This document shows positions 1,774 through 13,275 of a DNA stretch of 64,000 nt, in pieces. Under the pieces are notes generated by a model. The model was not told the origin of the DNA, ran no database searches, and was given only the letters and a program-made list of their open reading frames with translations. The stretch comes from a virus, in IMG/VR virus record IMGVR_UViG_3300017991_002758, positions 1 through 64,000 of that record; one strand, given 5' to 3'. Numbering within the stretch: position 1 is the first letter of the stretch; each line of letters starts with the position of its first letter. Made by a program: the position numbers and the translations under genes.

Positions 1774-1859
1774 GTGCGGCGACTGTTCGACTGTACCCAA
1801 CACTGACGGAGTTGCAGCGCAAGAAACTTGTTGAGTTTTTGGGTTTTGGTGATGCGTGA
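1770..1859 (+). CDS. 29-residue coupling ORF before the methyltransferase
   Basis: A short ORF (MSAATVRLYPTLTELQ...) whose ATG overlaps the upstream stop (ATGA) and whose TGA at 1857-1859 overlaps the methyltransferase start at 1852. The methyltransferase has no good Shine-Dalgarno of its own, so translation of this ORF may deliver ribosomes to it. It could be a real micro-peptide or only a coupling device. Confidence 0.4.
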   Translation: MSAATVRLYPTLTELQRKKLVEFLGFGDA

Positions 1860-2883
1860 GCTGGCACTTTTTGCAGGGGCAGGAGGCGGCTTGCTGGCCT
1901 CACGATTGCTTGGATGGCGCACCATCTGCGCTGTCGAAATCGATCCCTACTGCCAGCAAAGGCTACTCGACAGACAGCGGGACAAGTGTTTGCCGCGATT
2001 CCCAGTATGGGACGATGTTTGCACATTCGACGGACACCCCTGGCGCGGACGCGTCGATGTCATCAGCGGAGGATTCCCGTGCCAGGATATCAGTGCGGCG
2101 GGTCAAGGTGCTGGAATTACCGGATCGCGTTCTGGACTTATCTTCGAAATGCTCAGAATCGTTGATGAAGTGCGGCCTACGTTTGTGTTCGCGGAAAACA
2201 GTCCGCAGCTTCGTACCAAGGGGCTGGCCACAATCGTCGAGAGATTTATCAGCATGGGGTATGTGGGACGAGTCGGGGTACTGGGAGCTGGGGACATCGG
2301 TGCAAACCATGAGCGAAAACGAATGTGGATCGTTGCCGTCTCCAAGGGCCTCATATGCGGACAGGGGAGGGCGGGGCGACCTGCTACAGGCGCTCAGAGG
2401 CAACAGCAACTCCCATTTCTCTGTGAAAGTGCCGACGCCAAGAGCAAACAAGTGGGGGCTGGAGGACAGCCACGGGAGTGTGGGTGGATGGGAGGGAGTA
2501 TTGGAAATGCTGCCAACTCCGACAGTATGCGGGGACTACGCCCGGAAGGGGGCGTCCTCCAGATCGGGCAATGGTTTGGCTACGGTATTGAACAAATTAC
2601 CCACCCCAAAAGTGCGGGAGGGTATAGATTGCAGATCGGAAAGGGCACGCCATGCACCAAATCTGGGGACAACACTAAATATGAGAATGAGAACAAAGTC
2701 ACTGACTGGTGGCGTCTACCCCGCTTTGCGGGAGTGGATGATGGGGTGGCCGATAGGTTGGACCGCATCAAAGCCACTGGCAACGGACAGGTTCCGGGAG
2801 TGGCTGCGCTCGTTTGGAGTGTGCTCACAAGTGATCTCACCGCTGTTAAGGCACGACAAAGAAGCGAAGGAAATCAGGAGTGA
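1852..2883 (+). CDS. DNA (cytosine-5) methyltransferase
   Basis: A 343-residue C5-MTase. Motif I is LALFAGAGGG at the N-terminus, motif IV is GGFPCQDIS with catalytic Cys77, motif VI is FAENSP (the usual ENV/ENS variant) and motif VIII is GANHERKRMWIVA. The C-terminal motif RIKATGNGQVP is at 2764-2796. The ATG at 1852 starts just before motif I; an in-frame TTG at 1828 is an alternative. It probably methylates phage DNA to evade restriction. From about 2310 onward the +1 frame is also open and carries a second set of methyltransferase C-terminal signatures (separate entry). Confidence 0.85.
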   Translation: MRELALFAGAGGGLLASRLLGWRTICAVEIDPYCQQRLLDRQRDKCLPRFPVWDDVCTFDGHPWRGRVDVISGGFPCQDISAAGQGAGITGSRSGLIFEMLRIVDEVRPTFVFAENSPQLRTKGLATIVERFISMGYVGRVGVLGAGDIGANHERKRMWIVAVSKGLICGQGRAGRPATGAQRQQQLPFLCESADAKSKQVGAGGQPRECGWMGGSIGNAANSDSMRGLRPEGGVLQIGQWFGYGIEQITHPKSAGGYRLQIGKGTPCTKSGDNTKYENENKVTDWWRLPRFAGVDDGVADRLDRIKATGNGQVPGVAALVWSVLTSDLTAVKARQRSEGNQE

Positions 2884-7840: not shown

Positions 7841-8485
7841 ATGGCAGAAGAGCAAGTCGAGAAAATTGTACCCGAGGTGCATTGCGCGCATACCGAAATG
7901 GTATCGCTGGTGAAGTTGGTTCCGAATCCGCGCAACCCCAATCGCCACCCTGAGCGCCAGATACAATTACTGGCGAAGATCATAACGGTTCAGGGCTGGC
8001 GTGCGCCGGTCACCATCTCCAATAGGTCAGGTTTCATTGTCAGAGGCCATGGCCGGTACGAGGCGGCCAAGCTTCTCAGTTTGGATGAGGTTCCGGTCGA
8101 CTACCAGGATTACGAGAGCGACGCCGCTGAGTGGGCCGACCTCATCGCCGACAACCGAATCGCCGAGTTGAGCGAGATGGATACCGTCGCTCTCAAGGAC
8201 CTGATGACGGAGATGGACAGCGGAGCCATCGATATGGACCTGACCGGGTTCGACAAGGATGCGCTCGAGGACCTGATGACCTGGGCTCCCGGCGATGGAG
8301 ATCTGCCGCCGGATTTACCCGAGCCACCGGTTTCAGGAGAGGACGACTCGATGGGCAAGCTGATGTTGGTTTACGAGACCGACGAGGAGCGCGAGGAGTG
8401 GCTGAGGCTCCTTGGGCTTGAAGGCACGGGTAATCAAGTGGTGTTTTGCCTGGACGACGTGAGGCACGATTCTGAGGGCGAGTAG
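7841..8485 (+). CDS. ParB/Srx-fold nuclease-like protein
   Basis: A 214-residue protein. The N-terminal half is a ParB N-terminal-like domain: LVPNPRNPNRHPE, then a helix, then GFIVRGHGRYEAAKLL (GHGR at 69-72), followed by ADNRIAELSEMD. In phages this domain is often linked to DNA methyltransferases and may act as a nuclease or NTP-dependent DNA clamp. The acidic C-terminal part ends in a short alpha/beta segment (KLMLVYETDEEREEWLRLL) that often follows the ParB domain in phage proteins. GAGAGG precedes the start. It opens the modification-gene run. Confidence 0.7.
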   Translation: MAEEQVEKIVPEVHCAHTEMVSLVKLVPNPRNPNRHPERQIQLLAKIITVQGWRAPVTISNRSGFIVRGHGRYEAAKLLSLDEVPVDYQDYESDAAEWADLIADNRIAELSEMDTVALKDLMTEMDSGAIDMDLTGFDKDALEDLMTWAPGDGDLPPDLPEPPVSGEDDSMGKLMLVYETDEEREEWLRLLGLEGTGNQVVFCLDDVRHDSEGE

Positions 8486-8493
8486 GAGGCGGT

Positions 8494-9189
8494 ATGTGTG
8501 GTGTCGTCGCCTACGCGACTCAGGAAGTCACTAAGGCTCAGGAAGCTTCCCTAATCCGGCTGTTCCGGGAGAGCAAGATCCGAGGCCTGCATGCCTGTGG
8601 GATCAGCTGGCTTTCCGAGGGCCGGCTACTGACCGCGAAATTCCACGAGGTCCCACAGCTTACTGCGCTACTGGAAGGGCTGCTCAGAGGCTTGCGAGGG
8701 CGCCCTCTGAAGCTGATAGGCCATACCCGATACTCAACCAGCGGAGATTGGGCCGATCATGCCAACAATCAGCCGTTGAATATCAAGGCCGGGCCGCCGG
8801 CCGGGAAGACAGGAGAGCTTCCTGACGTTCCTGAATCGGCCGTGAGTCTGGTGTTCAACGGCTGTATTCATATGGGCCTGCGGTCGGAGTACGAGGCCCT
8901 ATACGGCCGGGAGTACGTCACCGACAACGACGGCGAGATATTCTGCCGGAAGGTTCTGGACGGTGAGGATTGGGAGCGGTTCGTGGCCGAGGGCAGTTTC
9001 AGCTTCGCCGGCACCTTCATCTATCAGGGAAAGCTCGTTGTGATGCGAAACAGGAATCGCCCACTGTGGACTTGTACAGAGGATAGGGCAGTCTTCGTAG
9101 CTTCCACGGCCGACATTTGCCGCCGGGCCCAGTTGCCCGGAGAGCTCCAGGAGGTTGAGCCGTGCAAGGCCCAGGTAATTATAGTTTGA
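8494..9189 (+). CDS. class II glutamine amidotransferase
   Basis: A 231-residue Ntn-type glutaminase. The N-terminal nucleophile is Cys2 (MCGVVAY). Further signatures are GHTRYSTSGDW (76-86), NNQPLN, the oxyanion VFNGCIHM (Asn122-Gly123) and TDNDGEIF. It would release ammonia from glutamine for a partner enzyme. No synthetase domain is attached, so the ammonia acceptor is probably the amidoligase two genes downstream. Start set by AGGAGGCGGT before the ATG. Confidence 0.8.
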   Translation: MCGVVAYATQEVTKAQEASLIRLFRESKIRGLHACGISWLSEGRLLTAKFHEVPQLTALLEGLLRGLRGRPLKLIGHTRYSTSGDWADHANNQPLNIKAGPPAGKTGELPDVPESAVSLVFNGCIHMGLRSEYEALYGREYVTDNDGEIFCRKVLDGEDWERFVAEGSFSFAGTFIYQGKLVVMRNRNRPLWTCTEDRAVFVASTADICRRAQLPGELQEVEPCKAQVIIV

Positions 9190-10148
9190 AGCCCGGCGCT
9201 TTCGATCCCAGTACCGTGAGCCGGGCTCGCTCAAGCGATGCCGGTATGAACGAACCGGTAGACTATATCACCTACCATGAAATGAGCCGACAGTGCGGCG
9301 ACTGCGACCCGGCGTACGATATGCTGAAGTACGTTTGCGACAGGTTCGAGCTGAACATGGAACAGCGATACTGGCTCGCCTTCTTGTACGCGACCTGCTA
9401 TTGCGGCGCGACGGTTTATTACATCTACAATGAATTCCCGGACTTCGAGAATGTCGACTTCGGCCGCCTCGAACGGTGGTGGGCAGCGAACCGAGACAAG
9501 CTGTACTTCCAGACTGATCGGCGCTGGGTCCGTTCCCGCAACCAGTGGTGTGATGTGATTCGCTCCTACACTTGCCACATGGGACGCCACGGCGAGCTGG
9601 GCTCGTATCAGGAGTCGGCGTTCAACCGATTCCGGACGAGCAACCCGCACGTGGCATACCGGATGCTGTACGACGACATGGGTCAGATCTATCAGATGGG
9701 AAGGTACGGCCTGTTCCTCTACCTGGAGGCTGTTCATGTCGTGACCGGGTTTCCGATGGCACCGGACACCATGGACATGAAGGACGGCTCCTCGGAGTCG
9801 AGTCGGAACGGACTGGCGTATGCAATCGGCTACCCGGCGCTCAGTGTTCACGGCCAAAAGCGACGACTCGAGCCGAAGTGGGTTCGTTACCTGCAACAGC
9901 GATTCGACGAGATGGTGAAGGAGCGAACGCAGAAAGATCCCACTGACGGAGTGTGGGCATTGGAAACGACGCTGTGCGCATACAAGAAGTACAGGATCGG
10001 AAAGCGGTATGTGGGCTATTACCTGGACCGCCAGGCCCGGGAAATTGAATCGATGGAGAGCAAAGTCACGGACGGCGTCGATTGGTCCGTGCTCTGGGAT
10101 TATCGGCGCGAGACATACGAACCGCGCTGGCTGAAGGAAGAGGCATGA
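9162..10148 (+). CDS. amino acid:DNA transferase-like protein (thymidine hypermodification family)
   Basis: A helical protein with YWLAFLYATCYCGATVYYIYN, then EFPDFENVD and WWAANRDKLYFQTDRRWVRS. I associate this set with the aGPT-pyrophosphorylase/amino acid:DNA transferase group, which displaces pyrophosphate from activated 5-hydroxymethyl-dU in DNA with an amine such as glycine. The GTG at 9162 has a full AGGAGG seven bases upstream and gives 328 residues. The ATG at 9246 lacks a ribosome site but is closer to the conserved part. It overlaps the next gene by ATGA. Confidence 0.6.
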   Translation: MQGPGNYSLKPGAFDPSTVSRARSSDAGMNEPVDYITYHEMSRQCGDCDPAYDMLKYVCDRFELNMEQRYWLAFLYATCYCGATVYYIYNEFPDFENVDFGRLERWWAANRDKLYFQTDRRWVRSRNQWCDVIRSYTCHMGRHGELGSYQESAFNRFRTSNPHVAYRMLYDDMGQIYQMGRYGLFLYLEAVHVVTGFPMAPDTMDMKDGSSESSRNGLAYAIGYPALSVHGQKRRLEPKWVRYLQQRFDEMVKERTQKDPTDGVWALETTLCAYKKYRIGKRYVGYYLDRQAREIESMESKVTDGVDWSVLWDYRRETYEPRWLKEEA

Positions 10149-11002
10149 GCAACTACACTTGGGGTCACGAGATTGAGTGGGGAGATATTGACAAAACATT
10201 CGAGGTTCCGAAGGAGCTGGGCGCCTGGGAATATTGCGAAACCGACATCGTGAATATCAGGCCACCGTATCAGTACGTGGCCGTCGACCCGTTGGGCAAA
10301 AAGCCTCCTGTTGGCGGAGAGATAAATACGAAGCCGACGCGTACCTGGGCCGAGCAGATTGACCGAATCCTTGAGCTCCACGAGATGTTCGTCAAGCACG
10401 GCGACAAGCCGACGACATCGTGCGTGAACCACGGCCACATACATATTCATGTGCCCGGCCTGGACAAAGACATCGACGCGCTGAAGAGGCTGATGGTCTA
10501 CATTCGCGACAACCAGGAGGACACGGTCGAGCAATTGTACCAGTACCGGGACAGCCGGGACATGAAAGGGAGCAAAGGCGCTAAGCAATATCTGAAATAC
10601 GATGGCGGCCGGCTCATGCCGGATTACATGTTCGACAATATCCTCACGTCGCGCAACTTCGCTGAGTTTATTTTCTATCACTGCGCGGGGAAGGACGGGA
10701 AGTCCCGCGGCCGGCCATTCAGGTATGCGGTGAACACGTATTGCATGAAGCACCTGCGCACTATTGAATTCAGATGCCTGCGTTCAACAACAAAGTACGA
10801 GGAGCTGGTGTCGATGTTCAGCTTCATCGAGAATTTCATGGACGCGGCATTGAACGGCGGACCTTCGGTGAAGCAGATACTGGCCACAGGCCGATACACC
10901 TTTCCGCCATTCATCTTCGACAAGCAGGAGTATGACGGTTGGGAGAAAACGAAGTGGCCCAAATCCCGTGGCATAAAACAGCGGAGGTTCTATGCAATAT
11001 AG
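10145..11002 (+). CDS. amidoligase (COOH-NH2 ligase, glutamine-synthetase fold)
   Basis: A 285-residue protein. Features of the amidoligase family are GHEIEWGD at the N-terminus, GGEINTKPT, the His-rich CVNHGHIHIHVPG and TIEFRCLRSTTKYEEL near the C-terminus, all potential metal/ATP-binding segments. It would use ATP to join a carboxylate to ammonia or an amine. Context (glutaminase, amino acid:DNA transferase, acetyltransferase) suggests that it acts on an amino-acid-decorated base, or on a free precursor. Overlaps both neighbours. Confidence 0.7.
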   Translation: MSNYTWGHEIEWGDIDKTFEVPKELGAWEYCETDIVNIRPPYQYVAVDPLGKKPPVGGEINTKPTRTWAEQIDRILELHEMFVKHGDKPTTSCVNHGHIHIHVPGLDKDIDALKRLMVYIRDNQEDTVEQLYQYRDSRDMKGSKGAKQYLKYDGGRLMPDYMFDNILTSRNFAEFIFYHCAGKDGKSRGRPFRYAVNTYCMKHLRTIEFRCLRSTTKYEELVSMFSFIENFMDAALNGGPSVKQILATGRYTFPPFIFDKQEYDGWEKTKWPKSRGIKQRRFYAI

Positions 11003-11498
11003 GCAATGCAGCGCCGAACAATTCAGTCTCGCGGTAACAAATGATCCGCGGGATAAGTTCGCGAAGACGTTCATTGCCAAGGCAAACATGCAGAAGCTTT
11101 GGCCTTTTTGCATGGGAGTTTGGGACGGCGAGGTTCTCAAGGGTGCTGTCATCACCACGGTGAGCAAACGGAAGCCCAAGGTCGCGAACCTTCAACTGCT
11201 GCACGTGTTCGCCGCCAGCCGTCGCCAGGGGGTAGGAAGATCGCTCTGCGTTTGGGCATTAAGCTACGCGGGATATTGCAAGGCAGCGTACTTCCGTGTT
11301 TCGGCCGAGCCCGAGGCCGTGGAATTTTACGAGCGATGCGGGTTCAAGTTTTGGGGCAAGCAGAAGAGCGGTTGCTCATTGTGTATGTACAGAATAAGGG
11401 ACGGCAAGTACGACGCGAGCGACCCGGTCATTGACAAGGCACTGTTCAGTGGGCGGAAGGGTTCACTGGCCGTTTCATACAAGAAGGGCAAGGCATGA
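10992..11498 (+). CDS. GNAT-family acetyltransferase
   Basis: A 168-residue protein. The acetyl-CoA motif is LQLLHVFAASRRQGVGRSL, followed by AAYFRVSAEPEAVEFYERCGF, which is motif B of the GNAT fold. It could acetylate an amine on a modified base, as acetyltransferases do in some phage thymidine-modification pathways, or on a small precursor. It starts inside the amidoligase gene and ends in an ATGA overlap with the kinase. Confidence 0.75.
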   Translation: MQYRQCSAEQFSLAVTNDPRDKFAKTFIAKANMQKLWPFCMGVWDGEVLKGAVITTVSKRKPKVANLQLLHVFAASRRQGVGRSLCVWALSYAGYCKAAYFRVSAEPEAVEFYERCGFKFWGKQKSGCSLCMYRIRDGKYDASDPVIDKALFSGRKGSLAVSYKKGKA

Positions 11499-12028
11499 AG
11501 AAGCAACTGATTTACCTGATCGGGCAACCGGGCAGTGGCAAGAGCACTGTGACCAACGAGCTGTTCAAGGATCTTCCGTTCGAGCAGCACACGAAACCGA
11601 TTGCACACATTGAATACCCCAACAGCATCCAGCTCGGCGCCGTGCGCGAGAGTTTTAGCGGAACCGACGCCTACCCAATGAACATTCAACCCAAGGTGGT
11701 GCCGTTCATCAAGGAGGCGGATTGCATGTCGTTCTTCGCCGAGGGCGACCGCTTGGCCAACGACAAGTTCTTCACCGCGTGCGCGGCCGCCAGTATAGAC
11801 CTGACGGTATTCTTGCTGTTCACTCCCAATATCATTGCCGCGGAACGCCGCATGGCCAGGGGCAGCAACCAGAGCCCGACGTGGTTGAAAGGCCGCATCA
11901 CAAAAGTCATTCGCCTCTGGAAGCATTGGGGTCGCAAGCCATACGTACTGATGGGCAAGAAGGCGCCGGCGGAGATTGTAGAGGACATGCTGAAGCACGA
12001 GCAGGTTAGGAGGTTGGTGGAGCGATGA
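11495..12028 (+). CDS. P-loop kinase (candidate 5-hydroxymethyl-dU DNA kinase)
   Basis: A 177-residue P-loop protein with Walker A GQPGSGKST (10-18), FSGTDAYPMNIQPKVVPF and FAEGDRLANDKFF, followed by an Arg-rich C-terminal helix (AAERRMARG, then WLKGRITKVIRL). The pattern matches small P-loop kinases of phage modification loci. Position next to the amino acid:DNA transferase and radical SAM genes suggests that it phosphorylates a hydroxymethylated base in DNA. A nucleoside or other small-molecule kinase is the alternative. Confidence 0.65.
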   Translation: MKKQLIYLIGQPGSGKSTVTNELFKDLPFEQHTKPIAHIEYPNSIQLGAVRESFSGTDAYPMNIQPKVVPFIKEADCMSFFAEGDRLANDKFFTACAAASIDLTVFLLFTPNIIAAERRMARGSNQSPTWLKGRITKVIRLWKHWGRKPYVLMGKKAPAEIVEDMLKHEQVRRLVER

Positions 12029-13275
12029 CCCGATATTACACGACGCCGAGGTGGACAGCCGAGCTACCCGACTGTTCGATGCCAATGACCTTCGACCAGT
12101 ACAGTAATTGTGGTTATGGTTGCGTCTATTGCTTCGCGTCTTACCAGCGCGCCGTTGGCTTCGAGAGCAAGAAGGCCCGGTACCTGGCCGGCGAAGCATT
12201 GCCGGCAAATGTCGATTACATCAAGCGGATCTTCACGGAACCTGGCTACTCTCAATTCGCTGACTATGTCGCCAACCGCAAGACGATGCAGTGGGGAGGC
12301 ATGAGCGATCCGTTCTGTCCCATTGAGAAGAAACAGCGCGTGGGGCTCGAGCTGCTGCGGTTCTTCGCCGAGATCGATTACCCGATCTGTTTCAGCACCA
12401 AAGGCACGTGGTGGCTACGAGATGAGCGGTATACCGAACTTTTCAAGGGACGGAAAAACTGGAACGTGAAGGTGAGCATCATCACCATGGACCGCGAAAA
12501 GGCAAAGCGGGTTGAGCTCCGAGTGCCAACACCCAAGGCCCGGCTGCGAGCAATAGAGAAGATCGCCAAACTCGATTGCGGCGGAGCGACGCTCAGATTG
12601 CGACCGTTCATGCTGGGCATTTCCAATCCGACGCATACCGAATTAATTAAGGCCGCGGCCGATGCCGGCGCCACCGCAGTATCCACGGAATTCTTTTGCC
12701 TGGAGCGACGGAGCCCGGCGTTGCGCAAGCACATGCCAATGCTGAAGGAGGTCAGCGGTTTAGATTACATGGACCTGTACACCACGTACAGCAAGGGCGC
12801 CGGATACCTGAGATTGAACCGCAACATCAAGCGCCAGTTCATCAACGAGATGGAGGCTGCCACCCGGGACGCCGGCATGCGATTCTACGTTAGTGATGCG
12901 CACTTCAAAGAAAGGTGCGATAATGGATCTTGCTGCGGCCTGGACGAGAGCTGGAATTACAGTCGCGGTCAATTCTGCCAGGCTGTAACACTATGCCGCA
13001 GGAATGGTCGTGTCACATGGGATGAAATCGAACCCGACATGCTCGAATGCGGACTGCAAAAGATCCTCTGGCGTCAGGCGGAGAATTACAACACGGGCAA
13101 CGCCGGCCGGCGCGCGAAGTTTCACAAGCACACCATGCGAGATTATCTGCGCTGGCTTTGGAATAACCCCAAGGCCGGGCAATCGCCATACACCATGTTT
13201 CAGGGCATAATGAAGCCAGTGGAAAAGGACGAAAAGGGAAATCTGGTGTACGAGTACGACGCAACAATGGAGTAG
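12025..13275 (+). CDS. radical SAM enzyme (SPL-like family)
   Basis: A 416-residue protein with the CX3CX2C [4Fe-4S] motif at Cys29/33/36 (NCGYGCVYCFASYQ), then GGMSDPFCPIE and KVSIITMD, as in spore-photoproduct-lyase-like radical SAM proteins. Later Cys residues (CDNGSCCG, QAVTLC) may hold another cluster or zinc. A radical step on a modified thymidine side chain is the likely role here; repair of photoproducts is the alternative. Overlaps the kinase by ATGA; the terminase follows after three bases. Confidence 0.75.
   Translation: MTRYYTTPRWTAELPDCSMPMTFDQYSNCGYGCVYCFASYQRAVGFESKKARYLAGEALPANVDYIKRIFTEPGYSQFADYVANRKTMQWGGMSDPFCPIEKKQRVGLELLRFFAEIDYPICFSTKGTWWLRDERYTELFKGRKNWNVKVSIITMDREKAKRVELRVPTPKARLRAIEKIAKLDCGGATLRLRPFMLGISNPTHTELIKAAADAGATAVSTEFFCLERRSPALRKHMPMLKEVSGLDYMDLYTTYSKGAGYLRLNRNIKRQFINEMEAATRDAGMRFYVSDAHFKERCDNGSCCGLDESWNYSRGQFCQAVTLCRRNGRVTWDEIEPDMLECGLQKILWRQAENYNTGNAGRRAKFHKHTMRDYLRWLWNNPKAGQSPYTMFQGIMKPVEKDEKGNLVYEYDATME

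Follow-up and report, generated by a model that had tools for sequence, protein, structure and literature searches.

How does a phage obtain the hydroxylated base that a DNA hypermodification operon would work on, when the enzymes known to make such a base are not found in its contig? The question is raised by seven genes at positions 7841-13275 of a 64,000-nucleotide stretch of viral DNA, here called the window, which is the first 64 kb of the 99,601-b IMG/VR contig IMGVR_UViG_3300017991_002758 (labelled 'linear', completeness not given). They encode ParB-like, class II glutaminase, amino acid:DNA transferase (ADDT), amidoligase, GNAT acetyltransferase, P-loop kinase and radical SAM (S-adenosylmethionine) proteins (Table 1). 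To our knowledge, all sources of hydroxymethyl-pyrimidines in DNA are either oxygen-using (TET/JBP) or a thymidylate synthase (TS)-type enzyme acting at the nucleotide level. Neither a TS-like hydroxymethylase (PF00303) nor TET/JBP (PF12851) was found anywhere in the contig, though its 99,601 b may be incomplete. The operon very probably modifies the bases of the phage's own DNA and, judged by its sequence, falls within phage base hypermodification of the known ADDT/P-loop-kinase type, as a new variant with a candidate new enzyme activity. We favour a pathway, with a probability of roughly 0.57, in which the radical SAM protein would create a hydroxyl handle on a pyrimidine after replication, which kinase, ADDT and acylating enzymes would then elaborate.

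Results

The comparison spans ~200 related loci, including 99 viral loci with a radical SAM gene of the window type, and shows which genes are present and in which order, their families and folds, their recurrent linkage and the alternation of TET with radical SAM. ParB lies adjacent to or near the radical SAM gene in 79 of the 99 viral loci and in nearly all bacterial-genome loci. Kinase and ADDT accompany it in 44 viral loci, 33 of which also hold a GNAT gene, while a TET-associated glycosyltransferase (TAGT, PF20691) is found in 27, nearly always (26/27) without kinase and ADDT. The typical order is MetK-ParB-ADDT-kinase-GNAT-radical SAM-terminase; a phage-encoded SAM synthetase lies near the radical SAM gene in 26 of the 99 loci and heads many ParB-radical SAM operons (L040, L043, L048, L052, L068 and others). 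A TS-like hydroxymethylase is missing from all 43 whole radical SAM records of the kinase plus ADDT set and from 25 of the 26 of the TAGT set, and TET is missing from 66 of 69 whole radical SAM records. No redox gene other than the window-type radical SAM is shared by the kinase/ADDT and TAGT loci.

ADDT/kinase systems act on 5-hydroxymethyl-2'-deoxyuridine (5-hmdU) and TAGTs on TET products. Since in known systems both enzyme sets work on a base that is already hydroxylated, and the two share only this redox gene, and since it is present in both kinds of operon without TET and TS, the radical SAM protein is the best candidate for the handle-maker. A sequence-only reading of this DNA had stated that the hydroxymethylase is absent from the window and must lie elsewhere in the genome. 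The absence stands and extends to the whole contig, itself possibly incomplete; a hydroxymethylase elsewhere need not exist if the radical SAM protein makes the handle.

A reciprocal set, from a separate kinase-profile search, holds 74 loci with a recognisable kinase outside the radical SAM set. TET is found in 42 of them and the window-type radical SAM in none, and the radical SAM profile matched none of the 50 whole records of this set. The kinase search also recovered L022 and L009, which have a window-type radical SAM and were assigned to the other set. Every kinase plus ADDT locus of the reciprocal set with at least ~2.2 kb upstream of ADDT contains TET. Pfam confirms four TETs from the TET cluster, the most divergent one being below the cut-off. 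In the ADDT tree, which carries long-branch warnings, the well-supported (starred) branches require the radical SAM label to change at least four times, and parsimony gives six. We read this as TET and radical SAM having probably replaced each other repeatedly at the start of a single pathway, a correlation drawn from fragments and related contigs.

The window radical SAM protein has the cluster motif CX3CX2C (C29/C33/C36), an additional Cys that is invariant in the family (Cys17) and a nearly invariant CCG motif. Its AlphaFold model (pLDDT 94) finds its best PDB matches in spore photoproduct lyase (SPL; 4fhg/4fhc, Foldseek 2e-7, TM 0.58 over the target), a radical SAM enzyme acting on thymine photoproducts in DNA. 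When the phage radical SAM profile was run against PDB sequences, only chance matches came back. SPL (4fhg) and PA0069/Rv2578c-type proteins share the fold and the CX3CX2C motif with the window protein; however, the window offers no photoproduct-repair context.

The radical SAM protein had previously been taken for the known M6-type isomerase, which does not hold. It gave no phmmer match with M6 gp53 at E 0.1, and L027 holds a gp53 ortholog, at 330 bits, alongside a window-type radical SAM, at 405 bits, while L098 likewise has both types; for these reasons we regard it as a distinct family. IMG/VR holds at least 279 relatives, and a tblastn search among 50,697 phage records returned no match for the protein. 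In bacterial genomes, ParB is followed directly by a radical SAM gene, window-type or shorter (L188-L189, L191-L212), and in the examined loci L195 and L209 these pairs adjoin terminase and portal genes and are prophage-like. That the pair stands alone suggests that it acts first in the pathway. The bacterial hosts are mostly anaerobes, with named records including Clostridium, Faecalibacterium, Ruminococcus and Lachnospiraceae, and for this reason an oxygen-free first step fits. Two peculiarities were seen among the relatives. In L035 (8632-11080), and also in L036, an intein-like insert splits the radical SAM gene exactly at CX3CX2C. In L030 and L031, TGA occurs 12 times in frame within the glycosyltransferase gene, and under table 11 the radical SAM gene is broken up, probably reflecting a TGA-reassigned phage.

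Thymidine hypermodification has reportedly been described in Pseudomonas phage M6, Salmonella ViI and relatives by Lee et al. in 2018 and 2022. As in the window, that system combines ADDT and a P-loop kinase acting on a hydroxymethyl base with a radical SAM protein (M6 gp53), and acetylation is known in the class. M6 also has a TS-type hydroxymethylase (gp58) and an HMUDK helical protein (gp55), whereas TS is missing from the window contig and the HMUDK helical protein from the window cluster; M6 and phage Simon alike encode a TS homolog, ADDT and kinase proteins of the HMUDK type. The window kinase is 38% identical to a cluster B mycobacteriophage gene annotated 'adenylate kinase' or 'terminase small subunit', which lies beside TET and ADDT. 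Phelemich has the order ParB, TET/JBP (annotated queuine tRNA-ribosyltransferase), ADDT, FAD oxidoreductase, kinase, terminase, and thus shares with the window ParB, ADDT, a Ploopntkinase3-type kinase and the location directly before terminase. Rhodococcus phage Tonitrus is reported to have ParB, TET-like, aGPT-Pplase2 and kinase genes (PMC11955845). In both phages the handle comes from TET/JBP, whereas in the window radical SAM stands in its place, with glutaminase and amidoligase in addition. IMG/VR operons such as L138, L167, L179 and L182 have the same five downstream enzymes as the window, but TET/JBP at the head and no radical SAM.

Two other pathways were considered, of which the first was rejected. 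The CmoX/CmoY pathway to 5-carboxymethylcytosine resembles the window in ATP-dependent amide formation on phage DNA, a ParB neighbour and, in one cluster, glutamine-using ligases (PMC12783734). It needs, however, CmoA and a methyltransferase with an SPPC motif, whereas the window methyltransferase has PCQ, the motif on which the pathway was discarded, and the fold of the window ligase resembles glutamine synthetase, not AMP-forming ligases. A 7-deazaguanine pathway, prompted by the neighbour of a Vibrio phage amidoligase (see below), found no supporting gene in the window cluster; DpdA, QueC, QueD and QueE were absent among the ~30 contig proteins scanned with Pfam, no dedicated whole-contig search having been made.

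The downstream module was also compared. The window glutaminase scores 27.3 bits with GATase_6 against a cut-off of 27. The window amidoligase has no Pfam match, and its orthologs touch Amidoligase_2 below the cut-off (L006 homolog, 21.9 bits against 22). Its AlphaFold model (pLDDT 81) resembles three enzymes at Foldseek 1e-4 to 8e-4, namely YbdK, glutamine synthetase and bifunctional glutathione synthetase, and gamma-glutamylcysteine synthetase at a weaker 4e-3; residues E9, E11, E59, H98, H100, R193, E208 and R210 are conserved. A search for close relatives with this amidoligase alone returned only one contig, 100% identical, and further relatives came through the kinase search. The glutaminase, amidoligase and GNAT set is not unique to the window, as it recurs in TET-type operons. 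Many kinase loci follow the order TET-glutaminase-(amidoligase)-GNAT-ADDT-kinase, the amidoligase being variably present (L134, L138-L140, L143, L145, L152, L155, L156, L158, L160, L167, L170, L179, L180, L182, L183, L185, L187). The window amidoligase is 61% identical to that of the TET-type operon L138 and the GNAT 60% identical to that of L167, with lower identities for glutaminase (~31%) and ADDT (~34%).

Orthologs of the glutaminase occur in 21 TET-type kinase loci, plus L017 and L049, and in those 21 never share the locus with an FAD oxidoreductase (8 loci) or a PALP enzyme (9). This exclusion is only suggestive, as the loci are partly one lineage. FAD oxidoreductase and PALP enzymes process the attached amino acid in other operons, and an FAD enzyme can convert glycinyl-thymidine to an aminomethyl base. 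The amidoligase of phage Simon accompanies ADDT, FAD oxidase and a TS homolog, and that of Vibrio phage 2.275.O adjoins an annotated 7-cyano-7-deazaguanine reductase; both pathways would be expected to give an aminomethyl base. An Ntn hydrolase of Vibrio phage 2.275.O, considered as a parallel to the glutaminase, was dropped, being unmatched by the glutaminase profile.

All seven open reading frames (ORFs) of the operon lie on one strand, and their tight coupling and family assignments, as first proposed, are borne out by ORF positions, overlaps, Pfam, PHROGs and NCBIfam matches and the amidoligase fold. ATGA start/stop overlaps join ADDT to amidoligase and kinase to radical SAM, with similar overlaps at other internal joints. 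The transferase-like gene is an ADDT by its PF18724 match; its start is probably 9246 rather than 9162, to which the ORF can be extended, as homologs begin near 9246 (compared with L017). Immediately downstream of the operon is the terminase large-subunit gene. All 125 ORFs retained by a simple gene caller are on the + strand of the contig, and contig L022 is 100% identical to 4.4 kb of the operon.

Table 1. Genes of the operon and the upstream methyltransferase, in window coordinates
Feature	Position	Strand	Evidence
C5-cytosine DNA methyltransferase, PCQ motif (GGFPCQ); operon membership putative	1828..2883	+	PF00145 4e-31, over N-terminal half only; missed by gene caller
ParB-like (ParB/Srx fold), presumed DNA-targeting or NTP-dependent accessory	7841..8485	+	ParB_N Pfam 9.9e-4; PHROGs 'DNA methyltransferase'/ParB 3e-39, 5e-33
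Class II glutamine amidotransferase (Ntn, Cys2), putative ammonia source	8494..9189	+	GATase_6 4e-6; start MCGVV
Amino acid:DNA transferase (ADDT)	9246..10148	+	PF18724 4e-23
Amidoligase, glutamine-synthetase/GCS2 fold	10145..11002	+	Foldseek, homologs
GNAT N-acetyltransferase	10992..11498	+	Acetyltransf_10 2e-11
P-loop nucleotide kinase (Ploopntkinase3), presumed kinase of the hydroxymethyl base in DNA	11495..12028	+	PF18751 1e-24; Walker A GQPGSGKST
Radical SAM, spore-photoproduct-lyase-like fold, proposed O2-independent hydroxyl-handle maker	12025..13275	+	Radical_SAM 3e-6; NCBIfam PA0069-like 2e-21

Elsewhere in the same phage there is a second radical SAM gene, of the DUF5131 family (L002:4989-5870; contig 85989-86870), and an ASCH-like protein, recognised by eye without a profile search, that may read modified bases (L002:15148-15660; contig 96148-96660). 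A bpMoxR gene (MoxR-type AAA ATPase) adjoins one for a vWA-domain protein (L001:6428-9301; contig 69428-72301).

Discussion

The proposal that this is a kinase and amino-acid:DNA transferase hypermodification operon with an extra ATP-dependent amide-forming pair is supported by the gene families found. In the pathway that we infer, from its reactions and base to the order of steps and the final group, the SPL-like radical SAM protein, with ParB, would first activate the C5-methyl group of the base through a 5'-deoxyadenosyl radical. This would give a hydroxymethyl (or equivalent) handle without oxygen, replacing TET/JBP or dUMP hydroxymethylase. The P-loop kinase would then phosphorylate the hydroxyl of the handle, and ADDT would swap the phosphate for a nitrogen nucleophile, which may be an amino acid or else ammonia from the class II glutaminase. 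Finally, GNAT would add an acetyl group to the amine, and/or the amidoligase would add an amino acid or similar carboxylate. BciD is a precedent for a radical SAM enzyme that hydroxylates a methyl group (PMC7242693). Thymine is most likely the target base, by analogy with the ADDT/kinase relatives; the C5-methyltransferase of the window is a possible alternative source of the C5-methyl substrate.

Several points weigh against this pathway. In L014-L016, the three records excepted from the absence of TET, TET/JBP and the window-type radical SAM stand side by side, and a TAGT, ParB and a SPASM radical SAM accompany them, so the window-type enzyme does not strictly replace TET. Neither TET nor radical SAM is present in some kinase records that lack ADDT, among them mycobacteriophage-like ones of complete size, and for this reason the lack of a recognised handle enzyme is not proof of its replacement. 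Most contigs are fragments, and the handle enzyme could lie off-contig; the radical SAM and kinase locus sets are phylogenetically non-independent and were collected with different queries, and a pooled Fisher test over both is given no weight as a probability because it mixes the two. By sequence, the window radical SAM has no significant match with SPL (profile E 0.54), and we know of no radical SAM enzyme that hydroxylates thymine or cytosine. The base could also be 5-methylcytosine, given the C5-methyltransferase in the contig.

As to the last steps, the product was first thought to carry an amidated or acetylated amino-acid side chain. We consider it more likely that glutaminase, amidoligase and GNAT make and acylate an aminomethyl base than that they amidate a carboxylate, because of the exclusion between glutaminase and FAD or PALP enzymes and the neighbours of the Simon and Vibrio amidoligases. 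Amidation, to which about one chance in three is left, would make glutaminase and amidoligase a single ammonia-dependent amide synthetase working on the carboxylate of the ADDT-attached amino acid, and could apply within any of the models discussed here. In this sense, the two genes are neighbours in 8 of 10 amidoligase operons; however, the glutaminase occurs without amidoligase in 13 TET-type loci, and for the Simon amidoligase the searched stretch gave no glutaminase match.

An alternative to the radical SAM protein as handle-maker, which we consider unlikely, is that it carries out a ParB-guided modification of its own, for instance on a different atom or base, and travels with hypermodification genes whose handle comes from an undetected enzyme or from the host. 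The coexistence with TET in L014-L016 would be explained in this way, as would the ParB-radical SAM pairs that stand alone in prophages. Nevertheless, an unknown handle enzyme would then be needed in ~70 contigs of the kinase/ADDT or TAGT kind, which have no second conserved redox gene in common.

Slightly less likely still is a route like that of M6, with 5-hmdU supplied by a hydroxymethylase encoded elsewhere, kinase and ADDT adding an amino acid, the radical SAM protein rearranging it, and glutaminase with amidoligase amidating or GNAT acetylating its side chain. ADDT, kinase, radical SAM and GNAT are all types known in thymidine hypermodification, and the phage Simon amidoligase occurs with ADDT, an HMUDK-type kinase and a TS homolog. 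However, the window radical SAM is not orthologous to gp53 and coexists with it in L027 and L098; it also occurs with glycosyltransferases in loci without ADDT and kinase, and as a bare pair with ParB, and the 99.6-kb contig shows neither TS nor TET. Improbable, and the weakest of all, is the same pathway on cytosine, in which the PF00145 enzyme of the window would make 5-methylcytosine for the radical SAM protein to oxidise before the remaining steps: TAGTs are linked to hydroxymethyl-pyrimidines generally, but a C5-methyltransferase is present in just 7 of 47 radical SAM records, and it is established that ADDT/kinase systems use 5-hmdU.

Conclusion

Among the open-access papers searched, we found none that reports a radical SAM enzyme able to make hydroxymethyl bases in phage DNA or describes the TET-glutaminase-amidoligase operon; a 2013 computational survey and a 2022 pathway paper may touch on parts of this. 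Beyond the window, we give even odds to the broader proposal that a widespread phage radical SAM family hydroxylates the C5-methyl group of pyrimidines in DNA without oxygen, mainly in phages of anaerobes, and replaces TET/JBP and dUMP hydroxymethylases at the head of both the amino-acid/acyl and the glycosyl branches. If true, this would explain hypermodified genomes in phages of anaerobes, and the radical SAM protein would represent a new class of DNA-editing enzyme. It would also open up unexplored base modifications through the glutaminase, amidoligase, GNAT and glycosyltransferase branches.

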